Origin: Clytia hemisphaerica
Taxonomy: Eukaryota > Cnidaria > Hydrozoa > Leptothecata > Clytiidae
Reading direction: 5' to 3'
DNA: 64,000 nucleotides
NCBI GenBank assembly: GCA_902728285.1
Contig: CACVBU010001147.1
Location: 128,443 to 192,442 of the forward strand
In this document: one piece after another, positions 7,101 through 26,527 of the stretch
How positions within the stretch are numbered: the stretch's first letter is position 1
Layout: the number at the start of each line of letters is the position of its first letter
Made by a program: the position numbers and the translations under genes
Notes under the pieces: model-generated
Told to the model about the DNA's origin: nothing
What the model saw: the letters and a program-made list of their open reading frames with translations, nothing else
Database searches by the model: none

Positions 7101-10100
7101 TCCTAGATTACTGGACTCTCGGCGTAGAATATCGACTTTATCTATCTATGTGGTTTTGGTGGTGCTTTGGTTTATGGTATCAGTTGAGATTCTTATTTCT
7201 TCATGAAGATAATTGTGCGATTCTTTACAATTTTCTTGCAAAAACCTAATAACTTGTTTTTAATAAATAACATTAACTTTCAGGCTGACGAACGAGCACT
7301 TGAGGTTGGTGCCACTTCAAAATCAGTTGGTGCAACCATGGCTCAACTCTTGACGGCCGCAGCTCAAGGCAACGACAGTTATACTGGCATTGCCGCTCGG
7401 GACACGGCAAGCGCGTTGAAAAACTTGACAAACGCCGTTCGTGGTGTTGCTGCCACGTCAGAAAAGCCGTCGGATCAGCAAGCCATTTTGAAAGCGTCAC
7501 AAGTGGTCATGCATGAGTCAGCAAATTTGATTGAAGAAGCCAAACGTGCGTTGGAAAATCCAAATGATCCTGATAATCAACAAAAACTAGCTCAAGTAAG
7601 TCTAATCTAATTTTTCATGCCTTAATGTTGTCAATAGACTTCTTATTGGAAAATCTATCATACCACATTTTAGCATAATGGTTCTGCTTTTCGGAATCGG
7701 AACGGGGCTCTGGGGTTAATAAGACTGGAATCGGTTATAATACGTAGATTATACTAAAGGTGTTTCATGGTTTACAGTAATGATTACGGGATAATGTTAC
7801 TTTAGATAGACTGTACTTTATCGCTCAGTTTTCATAAATTCATTCACCTGGCATGCTAGACTGTGTCACTTCAATCACCAAGGAACTTTAATAAAACAGC
7901 TCTATCAGTTCTAACTAAAATAATGGTGAACCCATTTCTATGAGAGAAAGGGAGCTGCAACATTTGAAAACTTTTTTGTTTTCAAACGTGTCTGTTCGTG
8001 ACCTAACCTTCTAAAAATATAACTTGGACTTATTAGTTTCTTTTGATAACATGTAAATGGGGTCGCTTGTAATCGGTGGTATACCATCCACTATTTATTT
8101 ATTAAGATAATGTTCTAATAGTTCCGTTGTGATGACCTCCTTCAGCTAACAAAAACTATTTTCGTGTAAGCTAGTATTGCCAATCATAACTGATTCATTC
8201 AAAATGTAATAATATTTTCTGAAGGCACCCCAAGTGTCCTATGTCGACTCTCCAAACTTTCCATTATTTATTATGAGCTCGACAGGGTGTCAGTAAACAC
8301 GAAAAATTTGTTTTTATAAAAAAAAGAGAAAAAGTAAAGTGAAACTTCCTCTATGAGAATAAAATATTTTTGCTTGCACTATGTATTTGTGGAAATGGTC
8401 AATTTAAAATTACAGAACAGGGTTACAGAGCTGCTCGATTGTATTCCTTTGAAAAAAGCTGAAACTGAAGAATCGAAAAGCGAAGTAATAATTTTACATC
8501 ACCTTAGTTGAACTTAAAATTGATTACATCGCTAGAAAAAACATTGACATCGAATAGAGAAAACTTTAACCTAATTACGGTGAAATGTTCGCCATTTCAT
8601 GGGACTTATTGCCAAATTTTGCTGCATTGCAGTCAATATTATATAAAGTACAATTAGTAAACATTTGGTTAACAAAACCTCGACTCAAACCATCCTATAC
8701 TCTTCATATTTTTCTCTTCAGGTCGCTCGTGGAGTATCTGCAGCCTTGAACAACGTTGTGAACTGTTTACCAGGCCAAAGGGTTGTCGAAGATGCCATCG
8801 AAGAAATCAATGCTGCAAGTCAACTCTTGCAAAATCCTGACATCAAGGTACCTCTTGCAGAATCTGTCACTTGCTTTTAAGTTTTTCTTGAGATCTTGAG
8901 CAAGTTTTTTTTCCATCCGTTTATATTTTGATACTCTTTAAAACTTTCTGCATTACAACCGTCTAGACTTAAATTTAGTTAATGGGCTTTTCCAGAAGAA
9001 AAGAAACATATACCCCTTTTGAGGAGGTCTATCCTTCCTGTGGCTGGAAATGCTGTAACCCCCCAGGCAATCTAAGGTTTAAACCCCTTCAGGAATAATG
9101 AATTTTAGTATTGGATTTAAAAAGCTACCCCCATGGGACTCCAGTTATTTTTGACAGATTTTTGTATCTTCCTTGGAACGGAAATGGACCTGTCCTCAAC
9201 AGAGGGTATACGGTTTTTTTTCTGGAAAAGCCCAATATAGGTAGCCCTTTCAGATACTCCAGCAGCTGTGTATTATAAAATAAACACTTTCGATCGTTGC
9301 GAACTGATTTCACTGTGCATTTTCAGTTCCCCGTCTCAGAAGATCCTTTCAGTCAAGTCCAAGAACGTCTCAACGAATCAAGTCTCAACTTGAACGCCGC
9401 TGCCAACGATGTCGTCCACGCTGCAAAGGGACCAAGTGGTCAGCTTGCCAAAGCATCAGCCAAGTTCTCACATTCTTACCAAGATTTCCAAACGAGTGGA
9501 TTGACACTTGCTGGCAAATTTAAAGACAAACAGGCTCAAGACCAACTGGTTAACAATCTGAGAAAGACCTCGACATGCAGTAGTCGATTGTTGTTGGCTT
9601 CGAAATCACTTGCCGCCGACCCAGGAGCACCAAACGCAAAGAATCTACTCGCTGCAGCTGCTAAGTAAGTCCATTATAATTCTGATTTCAAAAAACTCAC
9701 TGTATAGTTTTATGATAATATTTCAAATGGTTTTATTTACATTGTTGAACACGGAAAATGTTATGGTCATGATTTTGTGAAAGTGTTCAAAACAATTTTA
9801 AAATTAAAAATTTACATCTCATTTTTCTCTTCTTCGAATTGTCTTTAGGGGTGTAACTGACGCTATCAACCAACTATTGAACGAAGCTTTGACCACAGCT
9901 CCCGGTCAAAAAGAATGCGACTCTGCAATCAGAAACATTGAAGGTACGTTTGATTACATATATATTTTTACATGATTTGAAAACCGCGCGGTTGAAAACA
10001 AAGTTGACGCTCGCTAAAGTCGATTTTAAAGGGGAATTGGCGTACCGAATAATATAGCGTCATTTATGAGAATCTCTTAATGACGGTGATTTTTCGAAGA

Positions 10101-13100
10101 AAAGCCACGGTAATACGTGTATGACTAGTCTGTACTGTTATGATGGTTTTAAAAATTTCTAGTCTAAAAGAAGTGTTTTCGTCTCAACAATTCCGTTTTC
10201 GAATTTAGCAATAATTCATCAAGTTAGTCAATGTCTTTTTACGTTTATCCTATTTTCCGTTTGAAAAGAAACACCTTGTTTAATCCTTGTTTCGTATACA
10301 GGCCAACTTTGGGTTTAAAATTCTGTACTTAACCCTTTGAGTGCCAGGGTCCTTTTTTCTAAGTTTTTTTTTTTAAATTGCTAGTTCAAACTTTAAGGGC
10401 TTATATCTTCTGATCTAGAATGAATTAGAAGCTCGTATATAGCTCGTTGGATAGCTTAGAGTCTCCTCTTTCTTTTGGGCGCCTTCGGCGCCGCCCGATT
10501 TAGGAAGGGCGTGGTGGGCGGCGGCCAGGGGGGGGGGGGGTAGGTTAGGGAATTAAAGCAGTCAGGCCCGCTGCGCGGACCTGACTGAACTGATGGAAAG
10601 GTGCCCAGTGGTAAAACTTCAAATCGATTCACTAGAAGACAGAATAAAGTAAAACAGGGCCAAATTTGGAGGTTCTTGGATCACTCGTTGACCAAAAATA
10701 GTCAAAAAACGGTCAGAATCTCAAAAAAGTGAATTTTTGTCAATTTTTTGCATTTTTTTGACTTTTTCGCTTAAAATCTCGCTGGAAAGACTCACTTTTG
10801 AAATTTTTTTTGCTTGACCATAAAGGACAATCTAATTCCTACGAGTTCGACCAAAAATAACGATTTCTAAATCAAACTGGGCATTACAGGAGGGCTTCGC
10901 CCTCCTATATAGCCCATGTCGTATATATACGACATCGGCACTTAAAGGGTTAAACAAAGTGAAAAAAAAAATTGAAAATGTGATTTTTTGGTGTTTTTCA
11001 GCATTTTTGAGTGATTTTAGGCCAAAAATTGAGAAATTTAAGAAAAAAAATAATTTTTGCAATTTTTCTTTAACCCTTTGAGTGCCAGGGTCCTTTTTTC
11101 TAAGTTTTTTTTTTTAAATTGCTAGTTCAAACTTTAAGGGCTTATATCTTCTGATCTAGAATGAATTAGAAGCTCGTATATAGCTCGTTGGATAGCTTAG
11201 AGTCTCCTCTTTCTTTTGGGCGCCTTCGGCGCCGCCCGATTTAGGAAGGGCGTGGTGGGCGGCGGCCAGGGGGGGGGGGGGGTAGGTTAGGGAATTAAAG
11301 CAGCAGTCAGGCCCCTGCGCGGACCTGACTGAACTGATGGAAAGGTGCCCAGTGGTAAAACTTCAAATCGATTCACTAGAAGACAGAATAAAGTAAAACA
11401 GGGCCAAATTTGGAGGTTCTTGGATCACTCGTTGACCAAAAATAGTCAAAAAACGGTCAGAATCTCAAAAAAGTGAATTTTTGTCAATTTTTTGCATTTT
11501 TTTGACTTTTTCGCTTAAAATCTCGCTGGAAAGACTCACTTTTGAAATTTTTTTTGCTTGACCATAAAGGACAATCTAATTCCTACGAGTTCGACCAAAA
11601 ATAACGATTTCTAAATCAAACTGGGCATTACAGGAGGGCTTCGCCCTCCTATATAGCCCATGTCGTATATATACGACATCGGCACTTAAAGGGTTAAAGA
11701 GAATTTGTTGTTTGGCCTAGAAAAGGGAGATGATGTATATGTGTTTTTGTATGATTTATTAGGTGTGGCACATGTGTTGGAGAATCCGGTTGAGCCAGTT
11801 AACGAGGCTTCTTTCTTCGAATGTTTGGACACAGCTACTGAACGTTCCCAACAACTCGCTCAATCCATGCAAGATATGACTGCATCCTTGAAGAAAGAGG
11901 ACACCGATACGCTGGCTAATGCAGCCAGTGTGGCATCTGATGCAGTGTGTCAATTGACTGAATCAACTGCTCAGGTAAAAAAGATGTCAAAATTATGTTC
12001 GATCTTAAGTTTATAAACTACCAGTAAAAGTAGTACAACCCTTCTATATGCCCTTATAATAGTGCTCTGGTGAGAAATCTATATTTTGTAATTCTAATTT
12101 ATGCAGGATTTGAAATAACGGTCGGATATTGCCCGACCAAAAATCATAATTTGTAAGCTAAAGCAACCCTGTTCGGGCATTTTGTCCGACCTGCTTGGTA
12201 TCGTTATACCAAGCCTTGTCTACGATTCCTTTTTTGTGCTCTGAGTAAGATGGGATTTCCGGGGATTTCCTATCTCAGTGAATGTCTATGTCTCAGGTCT
12301 CTACGTAGAAGAAAGTATTAGATATTCTTAAAACATGATACCTCAATACTTTTCTTTCTCTTTAGGCTGCATACTTAGTCGCAATTTCTGACCCATCGTC
12401 GACAGCTGGGAGAGCTGGTCTTGTCGACCAATCACAATTTGCAAAAGCACGTGATGCAATCCGCGGGGCCTGTGAAGGACTTCTTAGCGAAAACAATTCT
12501 CAACAACAGGTAATGGCTCAATACCAAAAAAGTCCTAGATAAACCAAAATATGAAGAACTTTTTCAAAATATCTTTCACAAAAGTATGAATGAACTTCTG
12601 CTTTTTTTTAAATAATTACTTTACTTTGCGATATTAATTACCACAGCCTGCTAAAAATATTAATTATTTTAAACAAATTTTAATAACTTGTTTCTTTTAG
12701 GATGAAAAACAGTATTATAGGGTAAGAAATGAAATGCTAGTCATAATCTTTAAACCTTTAAATTCAAATAAACCATTAACCATTTTGAATTTTAAAATGA
12801 AATATTAAATTTAATCCCAACATGAAAGATAAAAAAATATTTTAAATGTTTTTAAACGAGCAACTCCTGTATTAAGAATTAAATATAAAACACAATAAAC
12901 TATATTTAATAGAGTTCGGAATAATTGGTTGATAACGAACGATTCACAAATTTTGTCTTTTAGATCCTTTCCGCAGCAACAGTTATCGCTAAGCACACCG
13001 CTGGTCTTTGCAATGCTTGCAAACTGGCATCCACCAAGACTGACAACCCCGTTGCTAAGCGACAATTTGTGCAATCAGCGAAAGATGTCGCTAACAATAC

Positions 13101-16100
13101 TGCAAACCTCGTCAAATTCATCAAGGTATGTAACCTATATTATTGAAGCAATTTCAGTGTTCAATTGATAACTTTTTTAACGTTGCATTTTTAAACCCTT
13201 TGCAGGTTCAGATATAATGGGCTATTCCAGAAATAGTCTGTACCCCTATGTTGAGGAGGTGTGACGTCCAGGGTGGTCTGGAAAATAAAAAATCAAGGGT
13301 GATCTGGTTTTTTGAATGATGAAATCCGGGGGGTCAGTAAAATCGGGGTCATTATAACGAGGTCGAAAATCCAGAGTGGTCCAAAGAAATGGGAGAAAAA
13401 AATCAAAGGGGTCCTAAAATTGGGAAAAAATCCAGGTGATCACCTTTTTAAAAAAAAATCTCAACATAGGGGGTACAATTTCTTTCTGGAATAGCCCAGT
13501 GAGTTCCAGTATACAATAAACTAATAAACAAAATATAGCTGTTTACAGATTTTGTTTAAATTATAAAGTAACACTATTATGGAAGCAAAGTGTTCTATTG
13601 TAGGGACAGAAATTATGGTGGAAACTATGTAACTTATTCGAACGGAAAAACCTTTGTACATAGAAAGACTCTCTAAATGATGTTTTGATTAATTTTATCC
13701 AGGTTTATGCTGCAAACATGACACCGGACAATCGCAACGAGTGTGCCAAAGCTACTGAACCCTTACTCGAAGCTGTCGATAGCTTAGTCACTTATGCATC
13801 CTCTCCTGAATTCGCTTCAGTTCCCGCTAAGATCAGCAAACAGGTAAGAATGCGCTGCTTTGTTTTCTTCCGTTTTGGTCTAATCCTTTTAAAATAACAT
13901 TTAAAGTTACTTGAGTAAAAACATCTTAAATCGATTTCATTCATGACATGCAGCATTTCAATGTCTTCTGGCATTACATCACGGACCCTACAGGTTGCAA
14001 GTGACGTATTGACTGATTTTACGTCACTTACAACCAATCAGCTGTAAGGTCTATGCTGTAATGTTAGAGGGACATTGCAATCTTACATCATTAACAACAA
14101 TTACCCCGACCTCAAGTGAGGAAATCGCACCTTCTTGCATCTTGGTTATTGTTTCAAACTGAGACAAGTATTGACTCTGACGTAATTTATGGGATCGTCT
14201 AGACTACTTTGATATTTCAAGGAATATCGGACAATATATTAAACCTCCGATTTCCCCCATAGGCCAAAGCAGCGCAATATCCATTGATCATGTCCGGTAA
14301 ATCTATGGTGACATCCAGTACCAACTATTTTGTTTCCGCCAAACAATTGGCCATCAACAACAAAGATCAACCTACATGGCAAATCTTTGCTCAACACTCA
14401 AGAGCTTTGGCTGATGCCATGAAAAAGATTGTTACCTGTTTGAAGTAAGTTATGTATTCTTTTCCATCTTACCCCTTCAGCACTGTCTTGTAACTCAGAG
14501 AAATCAGGCAATAAAAACTCAGGTCAGCAAAAAACTCAACAAATTCGCATCGTGTGAGCTTAAAATATCTTCTTACAAAATGTAAACACGTTACATTCCA
14601 CGATTATCAGGGCGCCAAATGAACTAATTATTATAATGATATAGTTGAGAGTTGCCTACCGCCAAACACATTTAATAAAAATCTAAATGAAAAAACTGCG
14701 TATATCTTGTGAGGCCGGAAATTGTCACAGCTCCGGGTTCCATTTTATGGCACAGCCAAAACTCCAATTTTTTTTCCCATTCTATGATATACCATATATT
14801 CTTGAAATTACAAACTTTTTTTAAATATAAGTCAAAAATCAAGTTTTACACTACCTACAAAAATAAGTCTTGTCTCGCGTGTACTTATCATTCAAATTAT
14901 ACTCATGGGTTTGAAGTCATGTTTTCAATGCATAACTTTCTCTTCCCGCAGAGAGAACGCTCCAGGACAACAAGAATGCGACCAAGCCGGTGATATGATC
15001 AACAGAGCCATCAATAAAATCGATCAAGCTTCACTGGCAGCTATTAGCAATAACTTGAAACCAACAACCGAAGGATCACTGAAGGTATCTAAAGGAACTA
15101 CCACTTTTTGGGGGGATTCGACATAGAAAATTATGACAGCTATGGAATTTCTTACTAAATTTGTTTTTCTACACATAGTTATTAGCCAATATTATGATTT
15201 AAATTTCTAGTCGTTATGTCGATTTAAAGAATGCCTTATGTTCACCACACCTTCGAAACTATGTCCGCTATAATGTACTACATTTTAAATGAAGAGGGAA
15301 ACAGGTCTCGAGATTGACGAAATAAAAACGGTCATGCAAGATCGGGTATTGTAGAAGGAGGGCTTCGCAAATTTTCCGATGTAAGTCCAAAGATGATCAT
15401 GATGACATTTTTCAATATTTCGTAGGGTCTTGAAGAGAAGATGATGTTGACTTGCGATCAATTGAAAGAAAGTGTTCCCAACACTGTCGAATATGCCAAA
15501 GGATCTCCTGAACGCATTGGCCATGCTGTATGTATTTTATATCATTATATTTATACTGTTTATTAAGTAATCATTAGGGTCTTCTTTTGTAATTCTATTT
15601 ATTTTCGTTCCTGGAAGCCTTGGTTATCAATATTTTGACTGATCTGGCCAGGGAGGGGGCTCTGTTGCAGGATACTAACTCGATTAGGAAAATTTGTCTT
15701 AGGCACCATCACTCCTATTTTAGAACCTGGAAAAAACTGGAAAAAAAGAAACCCCCATTACCCTACTTAGAGGCCAGTTGCCAACCAAAAAAATATAGGT
15801 ATATCACCCTGGTAAAATCCCTAATACCCGAAAGGGGGGTACATACACCCCCTGATTTAGCCTTAGCTTTCACACTTGTGATAATTCGTTTTCAGGTTAT
15901 CACACTGGCGAATCTTGCCGATCCATTGGCCGATTCTGCTATTGGATTCGCCTCCAAACTTCCAGGAGGCTCACAAAAACAAACCGAATTGCTTGACGGC
16001 GCTAAAACCGTTTGTGAGTCGGCGGCTGCTTTAGTTTACGCCACCAAAGATGCGGGCGGCAATCCAAAGGCGGTTAACCACCACCCAGCTGTTGAAGAGT

Positions 16101-19100
16101 CGGCTGAAGATCTTGTGGAAGCCATCAAAGATTTGACTCAACAGTTAGAGGAAGCCGCTGGAGAAACTGGAGCCGTTACTGCTCTCGTTAACTCTATCAA
16201 TAAAGCACGATCCGCTGTAGGTTTCTTCATCATTAACAGAGTTTTTTTAAATACATATAGTCGACTCTCTCTAATTTGATCTTCAAAAATTTTCTTCAAA
16301 TTAGAGAGAGTAATTTAAACCCACTTCCAACTGAAAAGACCATTTTTTTAGTTCGAATTACAGAAAGACTCGAGTAATAGAGGTTCGAATTAGAGTGAGT
16401 TGACTGTAATACATATCATAGAGTAGGTCCATGCCAGCTTAAGATTAAATCAACTCCTTGATTTCTAGTGAAGGATCAAGTTTTATTTACAGATTGAACC
16501 TACAATTAAGACAAGTCCATAGAGTAATCTTTCAAGACAAAGTTTAGGCCGGCATTGACCTTGGTCAAAATACTAATAGCGCTGTGTTTGTGCTTACTCA
16601 AATCGATAAAAAAATAGATAATTATAAATTTATCAACTATTTCCATTGTAGATCACAGTCACAGTTGGTGATTACAGAGACAAAGGGAAATCACCAGAAG
16701 ACTCCAACGCTTCGTTCGTCGAACACCAAGGACACATGGTCAAACATCTCAAAAACATTGCACGACATTCTCAAGATATGGTCGGAAAATCCAACACCAA
16801 ACCCAAAGAATTGGGAGGCATTGCTCAAGTTTTGGTAAAAGATTATAACATGTTGACAGACGATACCAAGAAAGCTATCCGATGCAGTAACCAACCTGAG
16901 GTATGTCACCATCATCTTAACGAAATTAATACTTAAATCCCTAATTCATACCAAATAAGAAGAAATTTCAAATGACACAATGTTTTGTCTGAATGAGTTT
17001 GAAATCAAGTCTTTCGGATCCGATGGTTTTCATTCCTACATAAAAAGATTGATTTTGGATTTTGCGTAACAAATGAAACTGTGCTGTACATTAGAATTTA
17101 CATAACTAAATTTATTTCTCTAAGATTGGAGAACGTCTTCAAGTCAGTGTCGATTCTCTTGGATCATCGTGCGTCAACTTGGTGGTCGCTGCTGGAAACG
17201 TTCAATCGTCACCAAACGATTCTTATGCCAAGAAAGACCTCTCTGACAAAGCCAAGACTGTTAACGAAAATGTAAGATTGTGGTTTCCCTTCAAAACGCT
17301 TTCTTTGGCTTGATCTGCATACCTTTGTTTCCGGGTTGGGTTAGAGCGTATTGACGCTATGACGGCTAACTGAAATGTCTTATGGAGAGACTTCATGGGG
17401 ATCTCTCCTACAGACTCTCGCTTATTCGTAGTTTTATTATTCGAATCTTTTTCAATTCGAACTTCTTTCTAGTCCCCGTCAAGGAGAAACCTTCTTGATA
17501 TACGTTCTATAATTCGAATCTCTCTGTAATTCAAGCAAATTAGATTCCCCGTTCGAGTTCGAATTAGTGAGAGGCAACTGTATTTAGTTTAGTGTTAGAT
17601 TTCTTAAATTTATCATGTATTACTTATCGTTGATTTTTTAAATTTCAGGTATCATACGTGCTAGCCACTTTACAAGCAGGATCTGTCGGTACCCAAGAGT
17701 GTATCAACGCAATGAGCACTTTACAAGGTATTATCGGTGACTTGGAAACTACCGTTATGTTCGCCGAAGCTGGAACACTAAACCCCGAAACACCCGGAGA
17801 AACTTTCGGTGATCACCGTGAAAGCATTCTCAAAACAGCCAAGAATTTGGTCGAAGATACGAAATCTCTTGTCGTGGCCGCACAAGGAAGTCAAGAACAG
17901 TTGGCCTCTGCTGCTCAGAATGTCTTGGGAAGTATGACCAAGTTGGTTGATTACGTCAAACTTGGTGCTGCAGCTCTTGGTTCAGAAGACAACGAAGCTC
18001 AAGTGAGATTCTGATTTATTTCATTTATTTTGTTCAGGTCCAGATGATCTTTTGTTCATTTAGTCTGCTCAAATAGTTTACTTTTTACTATTTGCGAAGC
18101 TAAAATACATGAAACCTATGACGTGAATTGCCTAAGTTTCCGAAGTCGATTAAGGAACTAAGAAAGCCATTGACCCTCAAAAGGATTGGGATAAATTTAT
18201 TAGGATTAAAGTAAATCCATCGTATCGTGGTTGCCACCAATTTTAGTTTTAAGTAGTATATCCAGTGACAAACGGCCTGTGCGTAGTTTGGGTGCTTCCG
18301 TATAAAACATTACGTCATGAATATTATGAATCGATAAAGAACCTGATCTTAACTTAATCAAACTCTCCACCATCTCTCCACTCCCCATCCAGGTTATGTT
18401 GCTGATGTCAGCAAAAGATGTTGCCACCGCACTGACCGATTTGATCGACTCCACCAAGAACGCTTCTGGAAAACCTCCAAATGATCCAGCAATGGAAACA
18501 CTTAAAGTCTCTGCTAAGGTATACACTTCGTTTGTTTTGTTAACACTTATCAATTGACGATTTTATGTTTTAGCCAAATATCAGGATTTTTAACTAAATG
18601 TTTTCCGCGGTGACAGTAATACTTAATGGAGATTATAAGAAAGTCAATGTCACTGAACTCTACTAGCTAGCGTCAATACCTAATAATGGACATCAAATAT
18701 CTATTTCGGGAAAAAGAGAGGATGTGCAAATACCATTTAACTTGCGTGAGGTCTCTTTCTAACGGAACTTCTCGGCAAGAATTAACTTCCAGTGTTTTTT
18801 CTCAAACATTTCTGTCCATTTTATCTTTAAATGTTTCTTTTTTTCTTGTAGACGATGGTGACTAGTGTCTCGTCACTCTTGAAGACCGTACGAAGTGTTG
18901 AAGACGAAGCATCGAGAGGAGTTCGTGCTATTGAATCCACCGTTGATGCCGTCAAACAAGCTGTCCTCGTAAGTGCTTCACTTCTCGTGTTTACAGATTG
19001 TCAGCTTTACTTCAAAAATCTTTTAAACAGCTCCTCCGTCTCAGTGAAGTTTAAAGAGAAATTTTTTATGCTCAAAATTACGTGAAATCCTGCAAAATTT

Positions 19101-22100
19101 GAAGAATATCGGACAATTCGCTTGCTACATGTCACTCTCTAACACCAAGAAATTGGCTTGGCCACTGTAGTAACAGGTGCCTAGGAAAGGATCTAAAAGG
19201 CAGGATCAAAAGCTTGTCGATTCCCTGGTTTCACTTTCAAATTCTTTTCTTCGATAGAATCTTCAAGTTGGTGAACCAGACAAAGGTGCTTCGCCAGAAG
19301 AATTGATCCGAGCAACCAAAGGTGTCACCTTGGCAACCGCCAAAGCCGTTTCTGCCGGCAACAGTGGCAAACAAGAAGATGTCGTGCAAGCCGCCAACAT
19401 TGGGCGTCGATATTGCACGGAACTTCTTGTCGTTGTCAAGGTTAGTGTAAATTTGATGACACTGCAAAATGATACTTTTAGGAAACCACCGATGAAGTTT
19501 TCAGATCTTAATCGCATGCTTTATAAAGAGTACGAATTTCTAAGTCTTCTTTGATTTTTCTCATTCTTCTCTAGTAAGCGTATTAAGTTTGCTCATTCGC
19601 AAATTTGTGGGCAGGGCGTTAAGAAACTAGTTTTAGAGTCCGGCATTTCTGGCTAGAATATTTATTTGTCAAAAGGAAAATAGTGCTTCCTTCAAGCTAT
19701 CGACTGTTTTTGTCACGTTGATACGTTGAGTACAATCTCCTTAAAGGGAGAAATATAGCCAAACGTGGATCTCGTGATGCAAGCCACCATTAACTAATTT
19801 ACAGTACGAATATCAATGAGTTGATGAACTTAAACTTATTTATTTATAGTTATTTAGTTTAGTTTATTTTAGTTAAACTTATTTAGTGGTCAAGCAGTAA
19901 GTACAAGACACCATGCCGATTAGTACCGTGGTGTGCCATGTGAATTGGATGAAATCACTTAGTACTCGGATGTACTAAGCAGTTAGTAGGCATAGTGTCT
20001 TGTACTAACTGCTTGACCCCCCCCCTGGTTATAGTGACAATTTACAAAACCTTTATTTCCCAACCTACTTAGGCTGCTGCATTCAACGCCGAATCGGAAT
20101 CGATCAAGGTTGCGACGATCGTGAAAGGGCGTGACGCAGCACAAGCGTATTGTGAAGTACTCGATCACGTGGCTTCAGTCATTGTCCATCCCACACCACA
20201 GAAGAAACAACATTTGACCGTGTTGTCCAAAAAAGTCGCTCACTCTGTTGGTGAACTGGTCAAATCAGCTGAAGATCTTAAAGGTTTGTCATCAGTTCAA
20301 AATCCCACAATTCTTTTTAACAGGGAATTGACTAGAATAGACTTCAAAACAAGAACTTCGTAAACTCGGAATGGATTGTGAGTCTTAAAATCAACAGGGA
20401 AATTTCGTTTGGTTCTCTCCATTTTACCATCTTTTAAACGCCCTTTTTACTCCTATAACGGGCATCATTTTGGTAATTAAGAGCAACTTCTAGTGAATAG
20501 TACCTTAAGGGAAGAAATTTTTGCGGGAAGAAATTTTCTCGGAATTTAATTTCGCGGTTTTTCGACAAAATCCCCGAAATTAAATCCGCGAAACACGAAT
20601 ACCTATAAAATTGGTCTTTTTTGGGCAAAATAGGACATGTTTGAAACAAAAAATCCTCTTAACCATGAAATTAGATTCCGCGAAACTTTCGAATTTTGAG
20701 CTGTGAACCGCGAAAATTTCTTTCCGCGAAGATTTCTTTCCTTAAGGTAGACTACATAGATTTTGTTTATTTCTGGAGCAAAACGTCTATAGCCGGAAGT
20801 CAATCTTTCTTCCCCATTCGTTTCAGGTTCAGATTGGGTGAACCCAGAAGATCCAAACGTGATTGCAGAGAACGAGTTATTGGGTGCCGCTGCATCCATC
20901 GAAGCCGCCGCAAGGAAATTGGCTGAACTTAAACCACGTGCTAGACCTAAGGTAAATACGGATGTTATATTTGAAGTATTATTTGATCTCATTTAAAGGA
21001 CATACATTCTTTTTTATTTATAAGAGCAATTTTATAAGGACGCCTGCCTCAGATTTAGGCCCTCAGAACGATAGCTCTATTGTTTTGAACAATATAAACT
21101 TAAGAACAAATTTTACTTATGAAAAAGCGTATACTTCTACAAATTAATGCTCGGAACAGATTAAGGAATTCTGTATTATAAAAACGCAGGACCTATCTCT
21201 GACAATCGCAACTTTATCCAATCGGGCGTATTTAATTTATAAATCATAAACCAATCTCAATCAGAAAGGATTTTCTTCAAATAATCGCTCGATAATCCGA
21301 TTATCGCCAATTGACCTTTCTATAAACCTTTTTTGTCAATTCAACATCTCTGTTATGACACAAGTCAATGAGAATAAACGCTTTTTTACAAGAACCATTT
21401 CATAAGAACACTGAGAATCTGAAAATCGGCCAAAACCTAAGAACAAAGTTAAGAACAATCTGATTCAAAGATTTCCGAAATCACCTAGACCGTCCTGATT
21501 TATTTTGTTTTTTAACTTAAGAAACTCAGTGTTTCAAGAACATCTTAAGAACATTTTAAGCCCGAAATTTTCAACAAATTAAGAACAGGCCAGCTTTAGT
21601 CAGAAGTAAGCGGTTCTCATAAAAAGAAGCGTGTATTATGAAATCTGTTTTTTCGTGATCATCCGTCCTGAGCGCATATTTTGTTACGCAATTTCATATT
21701 AATTCAAACCTTCCGTGTCTTGTTTTGAATGAAAAGACACTATCTAAAGGCCACTGGCACACTCCATAGAACCTCTATCAGAATGTTTGTAAACTTTCTA
21801 CAATACCTTCCCAAAAATCTAAAAGGTTTTTGTTCACTTTTATGGAACTCAGAGCAAACAATCCTGTTAAGTTCAACTTTTGGCCACAACATTAAAAAAG
21901 CGCTACAGTAGAAATTTGAATTCAAATCTGAACTTTTCGGAGAAGGTCGATGAAGAGTTTTATAAAAATGATTCGATCTGTTGAACACTGCTCCGTAATT
22001 CACTTCACAAGCAAAAAGCAACGAAAAGAATGTTTCCTATACACTTTTTATGTTCCTTCGGGCGATGACCAAATGGTGTCAAACTTCAAAAGCTATCTGT

Positions 22101-23968
22101 TGGAAATCAGGGTATATATTCGATGACTACTCATTCTACCAATCTTAATTGCGAAGAGTGAATATATCGAGTTGAATGTAATGTTACTTGAAAGTCTGTT
22201 GATAACATTTTCTTTTTGGGTATGCATAATGTTTTCCATTCTGTTGCTATAGTAACTAATCAGTCATGCTCTCTACACTTTTGAATTTCAGCAAGCTGAT
22301 GAGTCTCTCAACTTCGAGGAACAAATCTTAGAAGCCGCCAAATCGATCACGGCGGCCGCTGGTGCACTCGTCAAAGCCGCAACCGCTGCTCAAAGGGAAC
22401 TTGTCGCCACCGGAAGGGTGAGTGCTTATATTCTTTGAAACTCAACGATTTTGTTTTGTTTTCGGTCCCGTTAAACACTAGTGTAGTTTTAAGGCTGGAA
22501 GTTTGTTAAAAGTGGTCTTATACAAGCGCCGAAAACAAATTTGAAATAAACCGCTTATATAGCTGACAGCTTTTAACAAAATTTCACTCAAGATGGGGGC
22601 CTATAATAGGATTTGATGTCTCCTAGTTAAAAAAAAAAAACCAAGAAGCCCTTTAAACCCCGGTGTTCTGTCTGTAAACTGTTTGAATATGTAATTTAAC
22701 ATTTACTGCTCTGCAAACGCGCGCGATTTTTTTGAAAACTGTGCGTGGAATTTATGGAAATGATGGTACTTGGGAATTGTGGATACAAAGATGATGCTGG
22801 TGGTATGACAACGTTTTCTATTTTCATTTCCCAAAAAATAGGTATCTTTCTCGTGATTGTTTCGGTTGAGCAATACTTAATGAAATACTTTTCAGAGGAA
22901 ATATCCTCTAACCCTGCCACCTATTATAGGCTCCCGTCTGCTTGGTCGGTTCATAAACAACAACAAAATTACTTTAAAGAAGAAACTTTCTAAAATGTCG
23001 ACATATTTTTATTTTCTTTCCACAGGCTGACTCAGAAAATGGCGAAGATTGGTCACAAAGTATTATTGCTGCCGTAAGCCCTTTTTGTTTTTTGTTATTG
23101 ATTAAATAAGTGCAGTTTTAGCCTCGCAAACTCTCCAAACTCACCTTAATATAGTCTCAGTTTGATGTTTTTAGATTGTAGTTTTTGATTCTCGTATCTT
23201 TAAAAACCTTTAAGATGAATCGTGTAGCTTACATATTTGTTTACTGTCTCTGAAAGTTAGAACTACTTTTTTATTTTGCACTAACAATATTTCATTGAAA
23301 TTGAACCAAAATTATTTGTCCGTTTCTAGGCTCGCTTGGTTGCTGCGGCAACAGGCTCACTTTGTGAGGCTGCAAATGCCGCCATTCAGGGTAATTGCAG
23401 TGAAGAGAAACTGGTCGCTTCGTGTAAAGCAGTCTCCAACTCTACAGCTCAACTCTTACTTGCTTGCAAACAGCATGCTGATCCTACTAGCAAAACTCAA
23501 CGAGGATTACAAGTAAATTTGATATATTGTTTGCTTTATATTTCTGCTTTTGAAATATTTTTCCTTTCAAAGCTTCATAATCTAAAAACTGTTCTATCTG
23601 TCTTAAACTGCGACTTTGATATTTTTCAATTTTTAGTTTGAAACGTAGCACTTGAGTATTTAAAGCATTTGTAATGATAAACTTTTATCGTATTTTTCTC
23701 ATTTTAGAATGCTGGTCAAGCGGTCAAGCGGGCCGCCGATGCGTTAGTAAAGGCCGCTCAAGGCTCTGCGTTCTTCCAAGAAGAAATCGAAGTTAACATT
23801 TCCATCGGAACTTCAGACGACTACAACGCAGAACTTGAAATGCAAGAATTGATCTTACGTAAACAGCGTGAACTGGAAAAAGCGCGCGCTAAGCTAAAGA
23901 TCATCAAAACATCGCGTTTCCGTGACGACGAAGAAGAGGAAGAAGAAGGAGGAGAGCAACAGCAATAA
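181..23968 (+). CDS. Talin A, 3' portion (F2 end to C-terminus), spliced
   Basis: Talin links integrin beta tails to actin and recruits vinculin at adhesions. Spliced exons: 181-285, 584-739, 1028-1129, 1421-1819, 2194-2354, 2525-2675, 3812-4402, 4758-4889, 5388-5531, 5890-6102, 6366-6500, 6839-6967, 7284-7595, 8722-8847, 9327-9664, 9849-9943, 11763-11974, 12366-12509, optional 12701-12721, 12964-13125, 13703-13843, 14263-14444, 14952-15084, 15426-15527, 15896-16216, 16652-16900, 17125-17271, 17649-18002, 18393-18518, 18852-18968, 19258-19440, 20073-20283, 20827-20951, 22292-22417, 23026-23073, 23330-23512, 23708-23968. They join in frame to 2271 residues without the microexon. All junctions are GT-AG. 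The product follows talin order: F3, linker, R1-R13, dimerisation helix. The start and roughly 295 N-terminal residues lie upstream of the window. It is a tandem paralogue of the gene at 39006. Identification as talin is secure; single exon borders could be off by a few bases. Confidence 0.95.
1211..1379. mobile_element. Pogo/Tigger-like MITE (CTCGAAC/GTTCGAG family) in talin A intron
   Basis: An intronic element with degraded inverted ends: the left end reads GGAGTGTCTATGACTCGAAC, and the right end GGTTCGAGTTAACGAG runs to a terminal CCACTG. Internal GTTCGAGTTAAG motifs match the better-preserved copy at 61051-61210. TA target duplications and CAGT-type ends are typical of pogo/Tigger relatives. 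Confidence 0.6.
1421..1819 (+). CDS. Talin A F3-R1 linker exon
   Basis: A single 133-codon exon encodes the flexible linker between the FERM head and rod domain R1. It is low-complexity and polar, and begins right after the LKK end of F3. It keeps segments close to vertebrate talin, including DEESTMLED, GSVAIPAVIRAG and HQPPLGH. In vertebrates the linker contains the calpain cut site; whether this one is cleaved is unknown. Talin B's linker exon is only 88 codons and lacks the first two segments. Splice sites: acceptor CAG at 1418-1420, donor GT at 1820. Confidence 0.9.
2194..2675 (+). CDS. Talin A rod domain R1 (first part)
   Basis: Two exons (2194-2354 and 2525-2675, joined in phase 2, 104 codons) encode the start of R1. 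The first reads from QSLKWMDDQKEISK into the helix with AAIVSLTSGDPEGFNYTAIG; the codon split across the junction restores STINSNLEEL. R1 is a five-helix bundle in talin. The talin B equivalents are 161 and 154 nt, and the first exon is identical in length between paralogues. Confidence 0.92.
2934..3170. repeat. Interspersed repeat also found inverted at 31085-31547
   Basis: This segment, with GATAGGGATAGAGTTCTATT and GGGGATGAAATCGAAGTCAA, is similar to the reverse complement of the spacer sequence around 31085-31140 and 31370-31547. It therefore marks a dispersed repeat family. It lies in the talin A intron just left of the hAT-like element. Confidence 0.55.
3223..3786. mobile_element. hAT-like non-autonomous element with flanking duplication
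   Basis: The ends read CAGGGGGGGGTCTTGCAGTT and its near-complement TAACTGCATGACCCCCCCCC with a final TG. The motif ATACTGT directly flanks both sides, as a target duplication. CAGGG-type ends fit the hAT superfamily, although the visible duplication is 7 rather than 8 bp. There is no coding capacity. It fills most of the 2676-3811 intron. Confidence 0.65.
3812..4402 (+). CDS. Talin A R1 end, R2 and R3 start, one large exon
   Basis: A 197-codon exon starts with PRQDLLTHAGEIG and ends with MVRQAKILAQ. It covers the last R1 helix, the R2 four-helix bundle and the start of R3. Alanine-rich amphipathic helices are visible, including LLLQLAKAVANATAALVLEA and TTSQLVACTKVLAPHI. Talin B carries the same sequence split by a 2.4-kb intron after the residues matching VQGAC here. 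Antisense open frames over this exon are shadows of its codon bias. Confidence 0.95.
4758..5531 (+). CDS. Talin A R3-R4 exons
   Basis: Exons 4758-4889 (44 codons) and 5388-5531 (48 codons) encode the rest of R3 and the start of R4. The first contains KRLLAAAKVLADATAKLVEA, matching a vinculin-binding helix of vertebrate R3, the rod bundle that unfolds first under force. The second contains LRVATNAAASNALKKKLIRR. The donor after AAKQ at 5531 is specific to talin A; B reads through this point. Confidence 0.93.
5890..6967 (+). CDS. Talin A R4 and start of R5
   Basis: Exons 5890-6102 (71 codons), 6366-6500 (45 codons) and 6839-6967 (43 codons). The first begins AVASATQLTSAAKAAG and ends ASKNFIP; the second spans PGSRLVANSKAAVPTVGDN; the third starts AAEACGSLEIDNALAAVKAL and ends LRPFPDDN. 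The order matches vertebrate R4 and the first helix of R5. The latter two exons have the same lengths as in talin B (135 and 129 nt). Confidence 0.93.
7284..8847 (+). CDS. Talin A R5-R6 exons
   Basis: Exon 7284-7595 (104 codons) carries MAQLLTAAAQGNDSYTGIAA and VRGVAATSEKPSDQ, the R5 core. Exon 8722-8847 (42 codons) carries NNVVNCLPGQRVVEDA, matching the SCLPGQRDVDNA segment of vertebrate R6. The intron between them (7596-8721) is 1.1 kb. Parts of the first exon are nearly identical at DNA level to talin B 51635-51946. Confidence 0.94.
7596..8721 (+). other. 1.1-kb talin A intron, no element identified
   Basis: AT-rich intron between R5 and R6 exons. Neither an RNA gene nor paired transposon ends could be found. 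Confidence 0.5.
8984..9233. mobile_element. MITE, GGGCTNTTCCAGAA family, copy 1
   Basis: Ends GGGCTTTTCCAGAAG and TTTTCTGGAAAAGCCC form an inverted repeat around about 250 bp. The internal TACCCCTTTTGAGGAGGTC is shared with the copies at 13219 and 62712. It lies in the talin A intron 8848-9326. Confidence 0.7.
9327..9943 (+). CDS. Talin A R6 end and R7 start
   Basis: Exon 9327-9664 (338 nt) starts FPVSEDPFSQVQERLNESS and ends in the helix containing SSRLLLASKSLAADPGAPNA. It joins in phase 2 to exon 9849-9943, GVTDAINQLLNEALTTAPG. The second exon ends in phase 1 after NIEG, where A has a 1.8-kb transposon-bearing intron absent from talin B. The 3' end of the first exon is almost identical to B 52918-52970. 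Confidence 0.93.
10002..10115. mobile_element. Degraded MITE fragment (GTTGACGCTCKCTAA family)
   Basis: AGTTGACGCTCGCTAAAGTC followed by AAAGGGGAATTGGC resembles the start of the elements at 55206 and 63211. The right end is not clear. It lies in the talin A intron 9944-11762. Confidence 0.45.
10333..10949. mobile_element. piggyBac-like non-autonomous element, copy 1
   Basis: It is bounded by TTAA on both sides (10329-10332 and 10950-10953), with ends CCCTTTGAGTGCCAGGG and CGGCACTTAAAGGG. TTAA duplication and CCC-starting ends are the piggyBac hallmark. It is 617 bp with no transposase frame, and is nearly identical to the copy at 11074. Confidence 0.8.
11074..11693. mobile_element. piggyBac-like non-autonomous element, copy 2
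   Basis: It has the same orientation and nearly the same sequence as copy 1, with TTAA at 11070-11073 and 11694-11697. By eye the differences are a G-run length, an extra CAG and a missing G. It ends 69 bp before the talin A exon at 11763. The two copies are 124 bp apart in one intron. Confidence 0.8.
11763..11974 (+). CDS. Talin A R7 exon after the transposon-bearing intron
   Basis: Starting in phase 1, this 212-nt exon encodes VAHVLENPVEPVNEASFF, then CLDTATERSQQLAQSM and ASDAVCQLTESTAQ. The residues match talin B 54034-54172 plus 54500-54667, but B places its intron 14 codons later, after PVNE. The summed exon lengths agree exactly (95+212 against 139+168 nt), which supports both models. 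Confidence 0.93.
12366..13843 (+). CDS. Talin A R8 and return into R7
   Basis: Exons 12366-12509 (48 codons), 12964-13125 (54 codons) and 13703-13843 (47 codons), with an optional microexon at 12701-12721. R8 is the bundle inserted in R7 and is a hub for RIAM, vinculin and DLC1-type ligands in vertebrates. Visible are AYLVAISDPSSTAGRAG, ILSAATVIAKHTAGLCNACK and the vinculin-binding-site-like FVQSAKDVANNTANLVKFIK. The last exon carries VYAANMTPDNRNEC and PLLEAVDSL, where the chain re-enters R7. Lengths match talin B (144, 162, 141 nt). Confidence 0.94.
12701..12721 (+). CDS. Candidate 21-nt microexon of talin A
   Basis: A phase-0, 21-nt open segment encoding DEKQYYR is flanked by a pyrimidine-rich acceptor (TTTCTTTTAG) and a donor (GGTAAGAA). 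It lies inside the 454-nt intron between 12509 and 12964. Inclusion adds seven residues after the NNSQQQ end of the upstream exon without changing the frame. By alignment the insertion falls in the loop between the first two helices of R8. Talin B has no equivalent in its 55174-55625 intron. It could be a chance open triplet run between fortuitous splice-like signals, so it is a candidate only. Confidence 0.5.
13219..13497. mobile_element. MITE, GGGCTNTTCCAGAA family, copy 2
   Basis: Ends GGGCTATTCCAGAAATAG and TTTCTGGAATAGCCC are near-perfect inverted repeats. The interior has GGTGTGACGTCCAGGGTGG, shared with the 62712 copy. It lies in the talin A intron 13126-13702. The short open frame inside (13312-13494) is transposon sequence, not a gene. 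Confidence 0.75.
14263..16216 (+). CDS. Talin A R9 exons
   Basis: Exons 14263-14444, 14952-15084, 15426-15527 and 15896-16216. R9 binds F3 in vertebrate talin and holds it autoinhibited. Recognisable segments are ENAPGQQECDQAGDMINRAI, KIDQASLAAISNNLKP, LANLADPLADSAIGFASKL and TVCESAAALVYATKDAGGN. By my alignment the glutamate of CESA sits at the position of human talin-1 E1770, the main autoinhibition residue. A has an intron after RIGHA (15527) that B lacks, and lacks B's intron after GGNPK. Confidence 0.94.
16258..16406. mobile_element. Pogo/Tigger-like MITE in talin A intron
   Basis: TA on each side, with ends TAGTCGACTCTCTCTAATTT and the complement of CAGTCAACTCACTCTAATTC. It is about 149 bp with no coding capacity. 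An internal GAAGAAAATTTTTGAAGA-like hairpin follows the left end. Confidence 0.7.
16652..18002 (+). CDS. Talin A R10 to start of R11
   Basis: Exons 16652-16900 (83 codons), 17125-17271 (49 codons) and 17649-18002 (118 codons). Segments include HMVKHLKNIARHSQDMVGKS, NLVVAAGNVQSSPNDSYAK, VSYVLATLQAGSVGTQECI and LVEDTKSLVVAAQGSQEQLA. The VSYVLATLQAG helix matches the vertebrate R10 vinculin-binding site (VSHVLAALQAG). The intron after NEN at 17271 is absent in talin B. The first two exons are the ones with decayed copies at 27998-28999. Confidence 0.94.
17411..17580. mobile_element. Pogo/Tigger-like MITE in talin A intron
   Basis: It starts CAGACTCTCGCTTATTCG after TA and ends CGAATTAGTGAGAGGCAACTG before TA. 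Several internal ATTCGAATC motifs are present. It lies in the intron 17272-17648 between two R10 exons. Confidence 0.65.
18393..20283 (+). CDS. Talin A R11-R12 exons
   Basis: Exons 18393-18518, 18852-18968, 19258-19440 and 20073-20283. Segments include VMLLMSAKDVATALTDLID, TMVTSVSSLLKTVRSVEDEA, RATKGVTLATAKAVSAGNSG and VLDHVASVIVHPTPQKKQ. R11 contains the second integrin-binding site in vertebrates, and R12 lies just before the actin-binding domain. Exon 19258-19440 is 61 codons against 62 in B and contains a run of about 51 bases identical to B 62510-62695. Confidence 0.94.
19887..20024. mobile_element. Short inverted-repeat element related to the 3223 hAT-like copy
   Basis: GGTCAAGCAGTAAGTACAAG and CTTGTACTAACTGCTTGACC form an inverted repeat. 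The right end continues into a C run and TGG like the 3223-3786 element, while the left G run is missing. It lies in the talin A intron 19441-20072. Confidence 0.6.
20501..20749. mobile_element. MITE, TACCTTAAGGGAAG family
   Basis: Near-perfect ends TACCTTAAGGGAAGAAAT and ATTTCTTTCCTTAAGGTA, with CGCGAAA-rich interior. It lies in the talin A intron 20284-20826 close to the R13 entry exon. A degraded relative is at 43404-43578. Confidence 0.75.
20827..22417 (+). CDS. Talin A start of R13 (I/LWEQ, THATCH) domain
   Basis: Exons 20827-20951 and 22292-22417 follow a phase-1 junction that restores KGSDWVNPEDPNVIAENELL, the signature entry into the I/LWEQ actin-binding domain. They continue through LGAAASIEAAARKLAELKPR and ADESLNFEEQILEAAKSI. 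The second exon ends in phase 0 after LVATGR. Two alternative sets of terminal exons follow, at 23026 and 24692. Confidence 0.94.
21012..21645. mobile_element. Probable inverted-repeat element with repeated TAAGAAC motifs
   Basis: The left end TTTTATAAGGACGCCTGC and the right end read backwards (TTTTATGAGAACCGCTTAC) are imperfect inverted repeats. The interior has many TTAAGAACA motifs. It sits in the 1340-bp talin A intron 20952-22291. The boundaries are approximate. Confidence 0.4.
23026..23968 (+). CDS. Talin A proximal terminal cassette: end of R13 plus dimerisation helix
   Basis: Exons 23026-23073 (16 codons), 23330-23512 (61 codons) and 23708-23968 (86 codons plus stop). They complete the THATCH core, for example WSQSIIAAARLVAAATGSL, and the coiled-coil dimerisation helix with ILRKQRELEKARAKL. 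The stop TAA is at 23966-23968. At the position of the human actin-binding KVK triplet (about 2443-2445) this cassette reads KQH. The tail after the coiled coil is highly acidic, a run of glutamates followed by GGEQQQ, unlike vertebrate talin. The domains match vertebrate R13 and dimerisation helix in order. Confidence 0.93.
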
Positions 23969-24691
23969 AACGAACACACTCCTCCGTTGGTTTCTTTTTT
24001 AGTGTGTAACCAATCAGGTCACTTCTAGGTGGCGCGTGTTTGATCAAATAGAATATACCTGGACTTCTGATTGGTTAATTTTACCAGCCACGCGTTTGTT
24101 TCAAACTTGTTTTGAAGTATTCGTTGATCGTATACATTGACGTTACAAGACATATTGGGTGCCAAAGGCGCGCCCATTTGAACAGCTGCTAGAGAAATTT
24201 TTTTAGAATCTTTTATTTTATATCGAAAAATTTATAAAGATTTTCTTTCTTTTATATATATTTCCTTTTTTTTGTGAACTTGACGATTTTGTTTCTTCAC
24301 TTGCCTACCAAAAATAAATTCATTTCGATTGCCAAATTGAGAATTATTTTCTGAAAAGATTAACGGATTCTGGTTTTTGTTTCCGTTCTTTTTTTTATAG
24401 ACACAGCATTATTATTAATGAATTGTACAGAACTTTTTTTGTCTTTTGTTTTTTTTTCTAGAATAATAAAGTAATTAATTACAAGAGATATTAACATAAA
24501 TTGAAATGAGGTTTCGACCTTAATCACGTTTTATTTTTATCCCGTTGCGTCGTTTCCAAACTCCAACTACTTTGTACCGGGTATAAATATATAGGCCCCC
24601 ATCTCTGACATTATATTGCCTTATATGACATTTTTCAACTGGTAATGCTTCAGCTGTACTCATTTTTCTTTTCATTTCTTCTCTTGAACAG
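23969..24691 (+). terminator. Talin A proximal 3' UTR with polyadenylation signals
   Basis: This 723-bp stretch between the two terminal cassettes is AT-rich with long T runs. AATAAA hexamers lie at 24313-24318 and 24465-24470, consistent with 3' ends for the proximal isoform. Choosing the distal cassette would require skipping or splicing past these sites. Confidence 0.6.
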
Positions 24692-26347
24692 GCTGGTAGC
24701 GATGCAGGAATGGATGGGCAATGGTCTCAAGGTCTTATTTCAGCTGTAAGTCTCATATATTTATATTATCAATTGTAAAGTCAAATTTTTGTTGAAATGA
24801 TATTTAAACTTCAACCATTGTTGACTTGAATGGTATTGTTTCTTGTGTTACTTTAATTGGATAAATTTTCGCGGTTGAGCTCATCCGCGAAATTTTAAGA
24901 TTTCGTGGGGATTTAAATTCGCGGTTGACACAATTGCCAGACAATATTTTCCCGATGTTGTGCCTTATACTGCCAAATCTTGCATGTAGGTTGTTGAGAT
25001 ACGCATTGGTAACGTTTTTTTTATGCTAGAAAACTTTTAGAAAATAACTTACTTGACATATAGAAATGAGTTTTATTTAAAATATTTTGCGGATAAGGTC
25101 TTTCAAACTTTCTATTGGGACTTGATTTCGCGGATGACACATAAAAGCGCGAAATCTGCGAAATTTTATCCCATTAGTATCTTTCCAAACTAGATCCCAC
25201 AAAAACTCTTGTTTTGAGATTTCCTCAGAAAGATAAAGAATGCCATATAGAAGCTAATAGTTTTACAGAAAATATGAACCCTCGATTTGTTTCAATTTTA
25301 GGCCCGTATGGTGGTCGCAACAATTGGTTCACTATGTGAAACAGCTAATAGCGCTTGCCAAGGGAATGCTACTGAAGAAAGAATCATTGCTTCAGCTAAG
25401 GGTGTGGCCAGTTCCACTGCACAGCTTTTGCTGGCCTCACGTGTTAAAGCAGATGCAAATAGTAAACCACAAAGGAATTTACAGGTATGTCGTTTTAATG
25501 TGGGAAATATCCCTCCTAGAGAAGGCGGATTCCAAGAAAGGGGGACATTTAGGAAGAGAAGTTGACATTAATGTATGATTTTCTACATTTTAGTACTTTT
25601 CCGGGGTATTTGCTAAATTTTCAAATATTTATATTGGTATGTGAATGTCGCCGTTGAAAAAGGTCCAATCTCAAAATTATTGTCTGAGAAAGGCTAGCTA
25701 GACAGAAAAATTCTTAGCTTTCTCAAACACTAATCTTGTGATTGGCCTGCTTTTGATTTGTCAACGGTGTAAGCAGTCAAAAACTTGGTGTTTTGAGGGG
25801 ACAAGCTGGAGTTTTTACAAGCTCTTATTTGATTTGGTTGGTCGTTAAGATGTAATAAAAGAATCTTATTACTTTTTCTAAAGAACGCGTCATCTCTATC
25901 ACTTTAAATGACAAATTAGTGAAGTATCTTTTAAAAACTCCAAGGCATCTCGTTTTGAGGAGGAAGATGTTTTTTTTAAGACGGGGAATAGGATGTCCCT
26001 GGATTAACCGAGTTGAACATTTAAGACTATCCATCTGGCATTGTAAATTTTCCAATAAATTGATAGGTTCGATGATCAAGTAAATTATTCACTGACTTCT
26101 ATTTCACTTCTAGATTGCTGGTAACGACGTGAAGCGAGCGACAGATATGTTAGTGCGTGCGGCCACCAACCAAGGGGAATTTGTAGTAGAGGTTAAAGTT
26201 GAAACGACCAAAGAACGCAAAATGCACGGCATCCGACAAGAGCGTGAAGCTGAAAACGATGTCAATAGAATCGAACGTGAATTAGAAGAGGCTCGAATGA
26301 AATTATTACAAGCACGTAAAACGAAGAATAAATTCAAGGGAAAATAA
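24692..26347 (+). CDS. Alternative distal terminal cassette of talin A
   Basis: Exons 24692-24745 (18 codons), 25302-25484 (61 codons) and 26114-26347 (77 codons plus TAA) are homologous, exon for exon, to the proximal cassette. All are in phase 0, so the exon ending at 22417 can splice directly to 24692. The first reads GMDGQWSQGLISA, closer to vertebrate talin than the proximal WSQSIIA. The second keeps RVKAD where vertebrates have KVKAD. The third ends in a basic coiled coil, RIERELEEARMKLLQARK. Open frames, splice sites and conserved residues argue against decay. It is either an alternative C-terminus or the stranded 3' end of a lost gene copy. Confidence 0.85.
24850..25180. mobile_element. 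MITE, CGCGAAATTTAATC family, in the distal cassette intron
   Basis: The left end TTACTTTAATTGGATAAATT and the right end AAATTTTATCCCATTAGTA are imperfect inverted repeats, with TTCGCGGTTGA inside. The same family occurs at 50295-50614. It lies between distal terminal exons 24745 and 25302. Confidence 0.6.
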
Positions 26348-26521: not shown

Positions 26522-26527
26522 AATAAA
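26522..26527 (+). terminator. Polyadenylation signal for the distal cassette
   Basis: An AATAAA hexamer lies 175 bp after the distal stop codon, followed by AT- and T-rich sequence. It is consistent with an independent 3' end for the distal talin A isoform. Confidence 0.5.

Follow-up and report, generated by a model that had tools for sequence, protein, structure and literature searches.

The 64,000-nucleotide stretch of the Clytia hemisphaerica genome analyzed here (hereinafter the window; contig C791, positions 128443-192442, in a genome of 417 Mb in 951 contigs) contains two genes for talin, the protein that transmits force from integrins to actin, which we name talin A and talin B. The two are tandem paralogues, collinear across 42 conserved blocks, of which three (at 15900, 20863 and 22342) were judged to be shadow-frame alignments whose values of synonymous divergence (dS) are meaningless. 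Talin A starts upstream of the window, the first block of its chain with talin B lying at -3167, and talin B runs past the window's end; positions above 64000 continue the window numbering downstream along the same contig (window-extended). Pfam searches with the concatenated blocks of talin A (1,859 amino acids) recovered a FERM head (FERM_f0, FERM_M and IRS (F3)) and helical rod domains (Talin_middle, Talin_R4, VBS, Talin_VBS2, IBS2B and TLN1-like_RS). At the 3′ end of both genes we found that the last part of the actin-binding domain and the dimerization helix are encoded twice, and that the neighboring introns hold complementary elements, here termed the docking element and selectors 1 and 2, by which one of the two versions could be chosen.

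In talin A, the last shared exon, which codes for the first part of the R13 domain, is followed by two three-exon terminal cassettes, A1 (proximal) and A2 (distal; Table 1). An earlier, sequence-only reading of the window had reported two complete homologous sets after position 22417, each with its own stop and in identical phases, and its coordinates proved right to the base: the shared exon and the six cassette exons all have lengths divisible by three (7/7), their junctions are phase 0, AG acceptors and GT donors stand at all cassette exon borders, and both sets have poly(A) signals. Its assignment of each set to the last R13 helices and the dimerization helix was likewise borne out by profile matches to the I/LWEQ domain (PF01608, cut-off 27.5 bits), with which the shared exon joined to A1 scored 122.9 bits (E 1.5e-35) and joined to A2 141.5 bits (E 2.8e-41), and by alignment of talin-1 R13-DD chains in PDB to both (best E 1.4e-50 for A1 and 9.1e-56 for A2). 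A PF01608 profile search of the genome returned 11 matches, two of which are helix exons directly past the window end; these belong to the two cassettes of talin B (B1 and B2), which were not visible to the sequence-only reading as they lie beyond base 64000. Their junctions are all phase 0 in the same layout as in talin A, with proximal AATAAA signals at 67095 and 67216 (window-extended). The I/LWEQ (R13) domain and the dimerization helix are present in all five C-termini compared, namely A1, A2, B1, B2 and that of a third gene, talin C (122-159 bits versus the cut-off). The tails of the proximal cassettes are acidic (RFRDDEEEEEEGGEQQQ in A1, EEEDEDEML in B1) and those of the distal ones basic (KTKNKFKGK in A2, KQKNKFKGGATPR in B2). 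The doubled terminal cassettes are far beyond chance and recur in a second gene. Because both sets, swapping R13 helices and the dimerization helix, are conserved in both tandem talin genes, alternative last-exon choice, as the sequence-only reading had proposed, appears much the likeliest use of the two cassettes.

In both genes the intron after the shared exon contains a docking element with complementarity to selectors located upstream of each cassette, so that the predicted docking-selector pairings were found in four of the four expected places. With short flanks included, the predicted duplex of the talin A docking element with selector 1 comprises 20 base pairs (bp) including G-U pairs (-36.3 kcal/mol) and that with selector 2 comprises 15 Watson-Crick bp, a bulge and then three more (-31.4 kcal/mol); the corresponding values for talin B are -31.9 kcal/mol for selector 1 and -35.4 kcal/mol for selector 2. 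In the exact Watson-Crick stems to the two selectors, the 5′ arms overlap by 7 nucleotides (nt) in both genes; since the two pairings share docking bases, only one of them can form at a time. A 15-mer at the docking core, GGGGCCTATAATAGG, occurs three times in the 417 Mb genome, as the talin A docking element, the talin B docking element and, reversed, talin B selector 1, and the control pattern obtained by reading it backwards occurs once. A mobile-element origin of the complementary motif was ruled out, all three genomic copies of the 15-mer being in talin A/B introns.

Table 1. Features of the talin A and talin B loci (window numbering; positions above 64000 are window-extended).
Feature	Position	Strand	Remarks
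Talin A body, conserved exon blocks	181..20952	+	42-block collinear chain with talin B; Pfam domains
Talin A last shared (constitutive) exon	22292..22417	+	First part of R13; phase 0 at both ends; same exon in talin B and talin C
Talin A docking element, AGATGGGGGCCTATAATAGG	22591..22610	+	In intron after shared exon, 173 nt past exon end
Talin A selector 1	22920..22939	+	86 nt upstream of A1; pairs with whole docking element
Cassette A1 exon 1 (proximal)	23026..23073	+
Cassette A1 exon 2	23330..23512	+	R13 helices; KVK position is KQH
Cassette A1 exon 3	23708..23968	+	R13 end, dimerization helix, acidic tail, stop TAA
Talin A proximal poly(A) signals	24313..24470	+	AATAAA at 24313 and 24465
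Talin A selector 2	24590..24604	+	87 nt before A2; paired to 15 nt of docking element
Cassette A2 exon 1 (distal)	24692..24745	+	18 codons, phase 0, starts inside R13
Cassette A2 exon 2	25302..25484	+	KVK position is RVK
Cassette A2 exon 3	26114..26347	+	R13 end, dimerization helix, basic tail, stop TAA
Talin A distal poly(A) signal	26522..26527	+	AATAAA
Talin B body	39620..64000	+	Shared exon and two cassettes just beyond window end
Talin B shared exon	64643-64768	+
Talin B docking element	64858-64878	+
Talin B selector 1	65234-65248	+	15 bp core
Cassette B1	65318-65374, 65720-65902, 66220-66471	+
Talin B selector 2	67167-67179	+	13 bp core plus flanking pairs
Cassette B2	67459-67518, 67797-67979, 69428-69664	+

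The case for these elements rests on the overlap of the two pairings, their recurrence in the second gene and their covariation. Shuffles gave arms overlapping in both genes by 6 nt or more, at any stem length, in two of 1000 cases (88 of 1000 for one gene or the other). As to recurrence, in blastn comparisons of whole introns, blind to the element, the docking element ranked first between the first introns of talin A and talin B (E 2.6e-4), and within each gene the docking-selector 2 match ranked first (E 3.4e-4 in A, 0.007 in B). When the docking element and selector 2 are aligned without gaps, 12 columns are Watson-Crick in both genes, and four of these are compensatory double changes; this covariation, measured between the two paralogues only, strongly indicates that the pairing as such has been maintained. 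The bare docking element, moreover, pairs with the A selectors at -35.3 and -29.2 kcal/mol and with the B selectors at -30.6 and -27.1 kcal/mol (selectors 1 and 2, respectively), energies that, in each of the four tests, none of 1000 dinucleotide-shuffled targets equalled (best shuffles -27.0 and -24.2 for A, -26.2 and -25.9 for B).

Several observations weigh against reading these elements as a switch. The complementarity was first spotted by eye and the tests were made afterwards, and talin B selector 2 (-27.1 kcal/mol) is barely past its best shuffle (-25.9). Stem length was controlled with same-size windows from a 94 kb region (400 draws for each selector, from which 106, 73, 109 and 60 draws with low-complexity best hits were removed for A selectors 1 and 2 and B selectors 1 and 2, respectively, some of the remaining best hits being repeats): the observed exact stem was reached by 22 of 294 windows for A selector 1, none of 327 for A selector 2, 12 of 291 for B selector 1 and 12 of 340 for B selector 2. 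Joint shuffles reached the stem length in 23 and 4 (A selectors 1 and 2) and 0 and 31 (B selectors 1 and 2) of 1000 cases. Stem length alone is hence moderate evidence, single stems this long being not very rare in this region. Among the eight matches shown, only T-rich ones are common to the distal introns of A and B, and selector 2 is thus not kept as plain sequence. Every junction being phase 0, hybrid isoforms (e.g., A1 exon 2 joined to A2 exon 3) are possible, and the signs of gene conversion described below mean that the likeness of A and B is not wholly independent. Finally, partition-function folding, which is unreliable in silico for RNAs of 2-3 kb, gave unequal results for the two genes. 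In talin A the docking element pairs with selector 1 at a mean of 0.99 per base when the intron is folded alone or through the end of A1, and moves to selector 2 when folding extends through A2 (0.735, versus 0.004 for selector 1). In talin B it pairs with selector 1 at 0.72 without the distal intron; with that intron there is no clear winner (selector 2 0.36, selector 1 0.26), and selector 2 reaches 0.454 when selector 1 is blocked.

The two cassette classes, class 1 (A1 and B1) and class 2 (A2 and B2), are old. Whole-cassette amino acid identity is 58% for A1-B1 and 74% for A2-B2 within classes, as against 46% (A1-A2), 37% (B1-B2), 40% (A1-B2) and 41% (A2-B1) across them; for exon 3 it is 56% and 61% within and 26-33% across. 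A maximum-likelihood tree of seven rows (A1, A2, B1, B2, talin C, human talin-1 and yeast Sla2) pairs A1 with B1 (support 99/98) and A2 with B2 (99/100), and by this the cassette duplication is older than the duplication of the talin A and talin B genes. One fork stays open where talin C and human talin join, and Sla2 sits on a very long branch; as the placement of talin C and human talin is unsettled, neither class is called the older type. Within classes the proportion of synonymous differences (pS) is 0.80 for A1-B1 and 0.65 for A2-B2, and 32 of the 42 talin A-B blocks show saturation or a dS of 1 or more; with such synonymous saturation, ratios of nonsynonymous to synonymous divergence (dN/dS) from these Nei-Gojobori counts are bounds only. 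Both classes have stayed open in both genes. Despite the saturation elsewhere, talin A 20863-20952 and talin B 64165-64254 (window-extended) are identical over 90 nt, which points to likely recent gene conversion in the exons just before the cassettes, and we read the dS of 0.75 in exon 2 of A2/B2 as a further sign of likely gene conversion.

The classes also differ at positions that bear on function. At the position of the talin-1 KVK motif (2443-2445, counted from the alignment ends of 6r9t), A2, B2, talin C and yeast Sla2 have RVK, A1 has KQH and B1 has QSK. By the same count, human Arg2526, which we take to be the counterpart of fly R2531, aligns with R in A2, B2 and talin C and with K in A1 and B1. 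The fly R2531G change blocks dimerization (PMC11075885). KVK/DDD mutants lose 40-73% (PMC11075885) or over 70% (PMC4686655) of actin binding by ABS3. As the KVK motif is lost in class 1 and retained as RVK in class 2, class 1 should hold actin more weakly; the proximal protein thus probably has a weaker grip on actin than the distal one.

Taken together, we propose that talin A and talin B would each make two proteins, differing in the second half of R13 and the dimerization helix, with one of the two three-exon 3′-terminal cassettes being chosen by competing RNA pairing. Pairing of the docking element with selector 1 in the cell would place the shared 5′ splice site next to the proximal cassette, and pairing with selector 2 would loop out the whole proximal cassette and bring in the distal one. 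Selector 2 lies downstream of both proximal AATAAA signals in talin A and of one of the two in talin B. With selector 1 being transcribed first and selector 2 lying past proximal poly(A) signals, the outcome would probably be set by the speed of transcription and processing, together with proteins binding either arm: in such a race, early pairing and early cleavage would yield class 1, and delay or protein masking of selector 1 would yield class 2. We put the probability that cassettes in both talins are chosen by competing docking-selector pairing, with class 1 gripping actin less, at roughly 0.75. The wider proposition, that this is a docking-selector switch outside Bilateria toggling two talins between strong and weak grip, which arose once before the A/B duplication and was kept by compensatory change, strikes us as somewhat better than an even bet.

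The cassettes could be accounted for more simply as alternative last exons chosen by splicing factors, poly(A) strength or transcription speed, with the complementary elements being incidental or serving something else. Two terminal sets with their own poly(A) signals would be selectable without any RNA structure, single stems of the observed length are not very rare, and the alternative last exons of Ciona talin are described with no mention of RNA pairing in the accessible text of PMC1702346; however, such a choice leaves the overlapping docking-selector complementarity in two genes, the four compensatory changes and the genome-wide rarity of the core without explanation, and we judge it unlikely. 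The sequence-only reading had itself raised another alternative, namely that a third talin gene was deleted except for its 3′ end, which survives as the distal set and is unused by talin A. A broken, stop-containing talin relic does lie between talin A and talin B (28045-28208 and 28841-28981), which resembles the mid-rod exons at 16652 (E 7.8e-12) and 17110 (E 0.004) and represents the remains of a further partial copy; yet it is mid-rod and situated downstream of the distal set rather than between the sets, so that only with a rearrangement could it be the missing 5′ part of that set, and talin B has an orthologous second set at the corresponding position. Both sets are, furthermore, intact with AG/GT borders, and a dead relic carried along in both genes would be expected to have lost its open frames at such divergence, which together make this origin very improbable. 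Marginally less credible still is that the distal set has a promoter of its own and is expressed as a short actin-binding fragment lacking the head: mammalian testes, kidney and brain do express a short C-terminal talin 2 without the FERM domain (PMC6032930), but a product starting inside R13 with an 18-codon phase-0 exon would hold a partial helical bundle only, and the partner of selector 2 lies in talin A's own intron. Competing RNA pairing thus remains the reading that we favor.

The third talin gene, talin C, lies on contig C305, where its exons match those of A and B in order. One terminal set was found there, comprising a mini-exon near offset 17207 of the stretch from 270000, a helix exon and a dimerization exon, and no second terminal cassette was found in the 30 kb searched on that contig. 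Six of the eight docking and selector motifs tried were absent from the talin C region; the other two, the 9-mer GGGGCCTAT and the 7-mer TATAGGC, have a single occurrence each, both outside the relevant intron. A weak I/LWEQ match on contig C797 (1450034-1450129, minus strand, 32.5 bits), with no talin-exon match in tblastn at E 1e-3, perhaps belongs to a Sla2/HIP1-like gene. In the bodies of the tandem genes we noted two apparent intron gains or losses between the paralogues: two open frames at 17110-18011 in A correspond to one in B (60204-60710), and one frame at 3788-4438 in A is split in B at 45531-45908 and 48333-48656. Between talin A exon blocks, a stretch of about 430 bases occurs as two tandem copies with a spacing of 744 (about 10550-10970 and 11290-11720), most of its translated pieces being 100% identical between copies. 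An inverted repeat among the talin B exon blocks (52999-53326/53644-53978), with a similar copy about 28 kb further on (81752-82378, window-extended), is probably a mobile element. Elsewhere in the assembly, cox1 (PF00115) led to a mitochondrial contig of 14,551 bp, whose other genes were named from translations with TGA read within frames; the order is cox2-atp6-cox3-nad2-nad5-nad6-nad3-nad4L-nad1-nad4-cob-cox1, with one tRNA (anticodon TCA) between cox2 and atp6, which ARAGORN reports as tRNA-SeC and we read as tRNA-Trp. This layout fits the non-aplanulatan hydroidolinan hydrozoans as given in the accessible text of PMC4655093 and PMC3519871.

Alternative talin C-termini and docking-selector splicing are both already in print. 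The statement of the sequence-only reading that no described talin has duplicated C-terminal cassettes is wrong, since the talin of Ciona intestinalis has alternative last coding exons, e49a and e49b, that yield different I/LWEQ modules (Singiser and McCann 2006, PMC1702346), though a doubled three-exon set does indeed not occur in the accessible text of that paper. The same source gives F-actin dissociation constants (Kd) of 0.76 µM for Ciona Talin-a and 0.19 µM for Talin-b, and of 0.31 µM and 0.88 µM for the I/LWEQ modules of mammalian Talin1 and Talin2, and notes C-terminal variation among Drosophila talin mRNAs (PMC1702346). As in Clytia, one Ciona gene has shared upstream exons and two alternative coding ends with different I/LWEQ modules, and, to judge from the printed primers, the weaker binder Talin-a ends in an acidic tail and Talin-b in a basic one, like class 1 and class 2 (PMC1702346). 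In contrast, the Ciona gene has only its last coding exon (78 amino acids) doubled, whereas in Clytia the doubling involves a set of three exons that starts inside R13 and occurs in both tandem genes, and docking or selector elements are not mentioned in the accessible text on Ciona (PMC1702346). The differing breakpoint suggests that the ascidian and hydrozoan alternative ends may be of independent origin. Vertebrate talin-1/talin-2 and Dictyostelium TalA/TalB likewise provide two talins with different roles, but from separate genes, whereas here there would be two C-termini per gene, up to four, plus talin C. A single splice decision swapping the actin-binding end would offer a natural test, outside Bilateria, of how grip tunes adhesion, and the four natural cassettes, some with the KVK motif and some without it, are ready reagents for actin-binding assays.

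Among the open-access papers listed by the searches, none shows by title or abstract such a case of cnidarian talin splicing or cnidarian competing RNA pairing, nor one of terminal exons with docking and selector elements. Competing RNA pairings have reportedly been described at a Drosophila 3′ variable region, which, if right, would be an insect precedent for terminal-exon choice. The arrangement in Clytia is like that of Dscam exon 6, with a docking site downstream of a constitutive exon and a selector beside each variable unit (PMC11802352), and, as in other mutually exclusive exons governed by competing RNA structures, one pairing forms at a time (PMC6071210). Ivanov and Pervouchine (2018) propose that tandem duplication of an exon together with one arm of a stem-loop generates two selectors facing one docking site (PMC6071210); their model is meant for mutually exclusive exons, whereas here a whole terminal cassette would have been duplicated. 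Unlike the Dscam-type systems, moreover, the putative switch in Clytia would act on two three-exon 3′-terminal cassettes with stops and poly(A) sites in a cytoskeletal gene. If functional, the elements would bring docking-selector logic, best known from insect Dscam, to cnidarians and extend it beyond single exons to entire terminal cassettes with their poly(A) sites.

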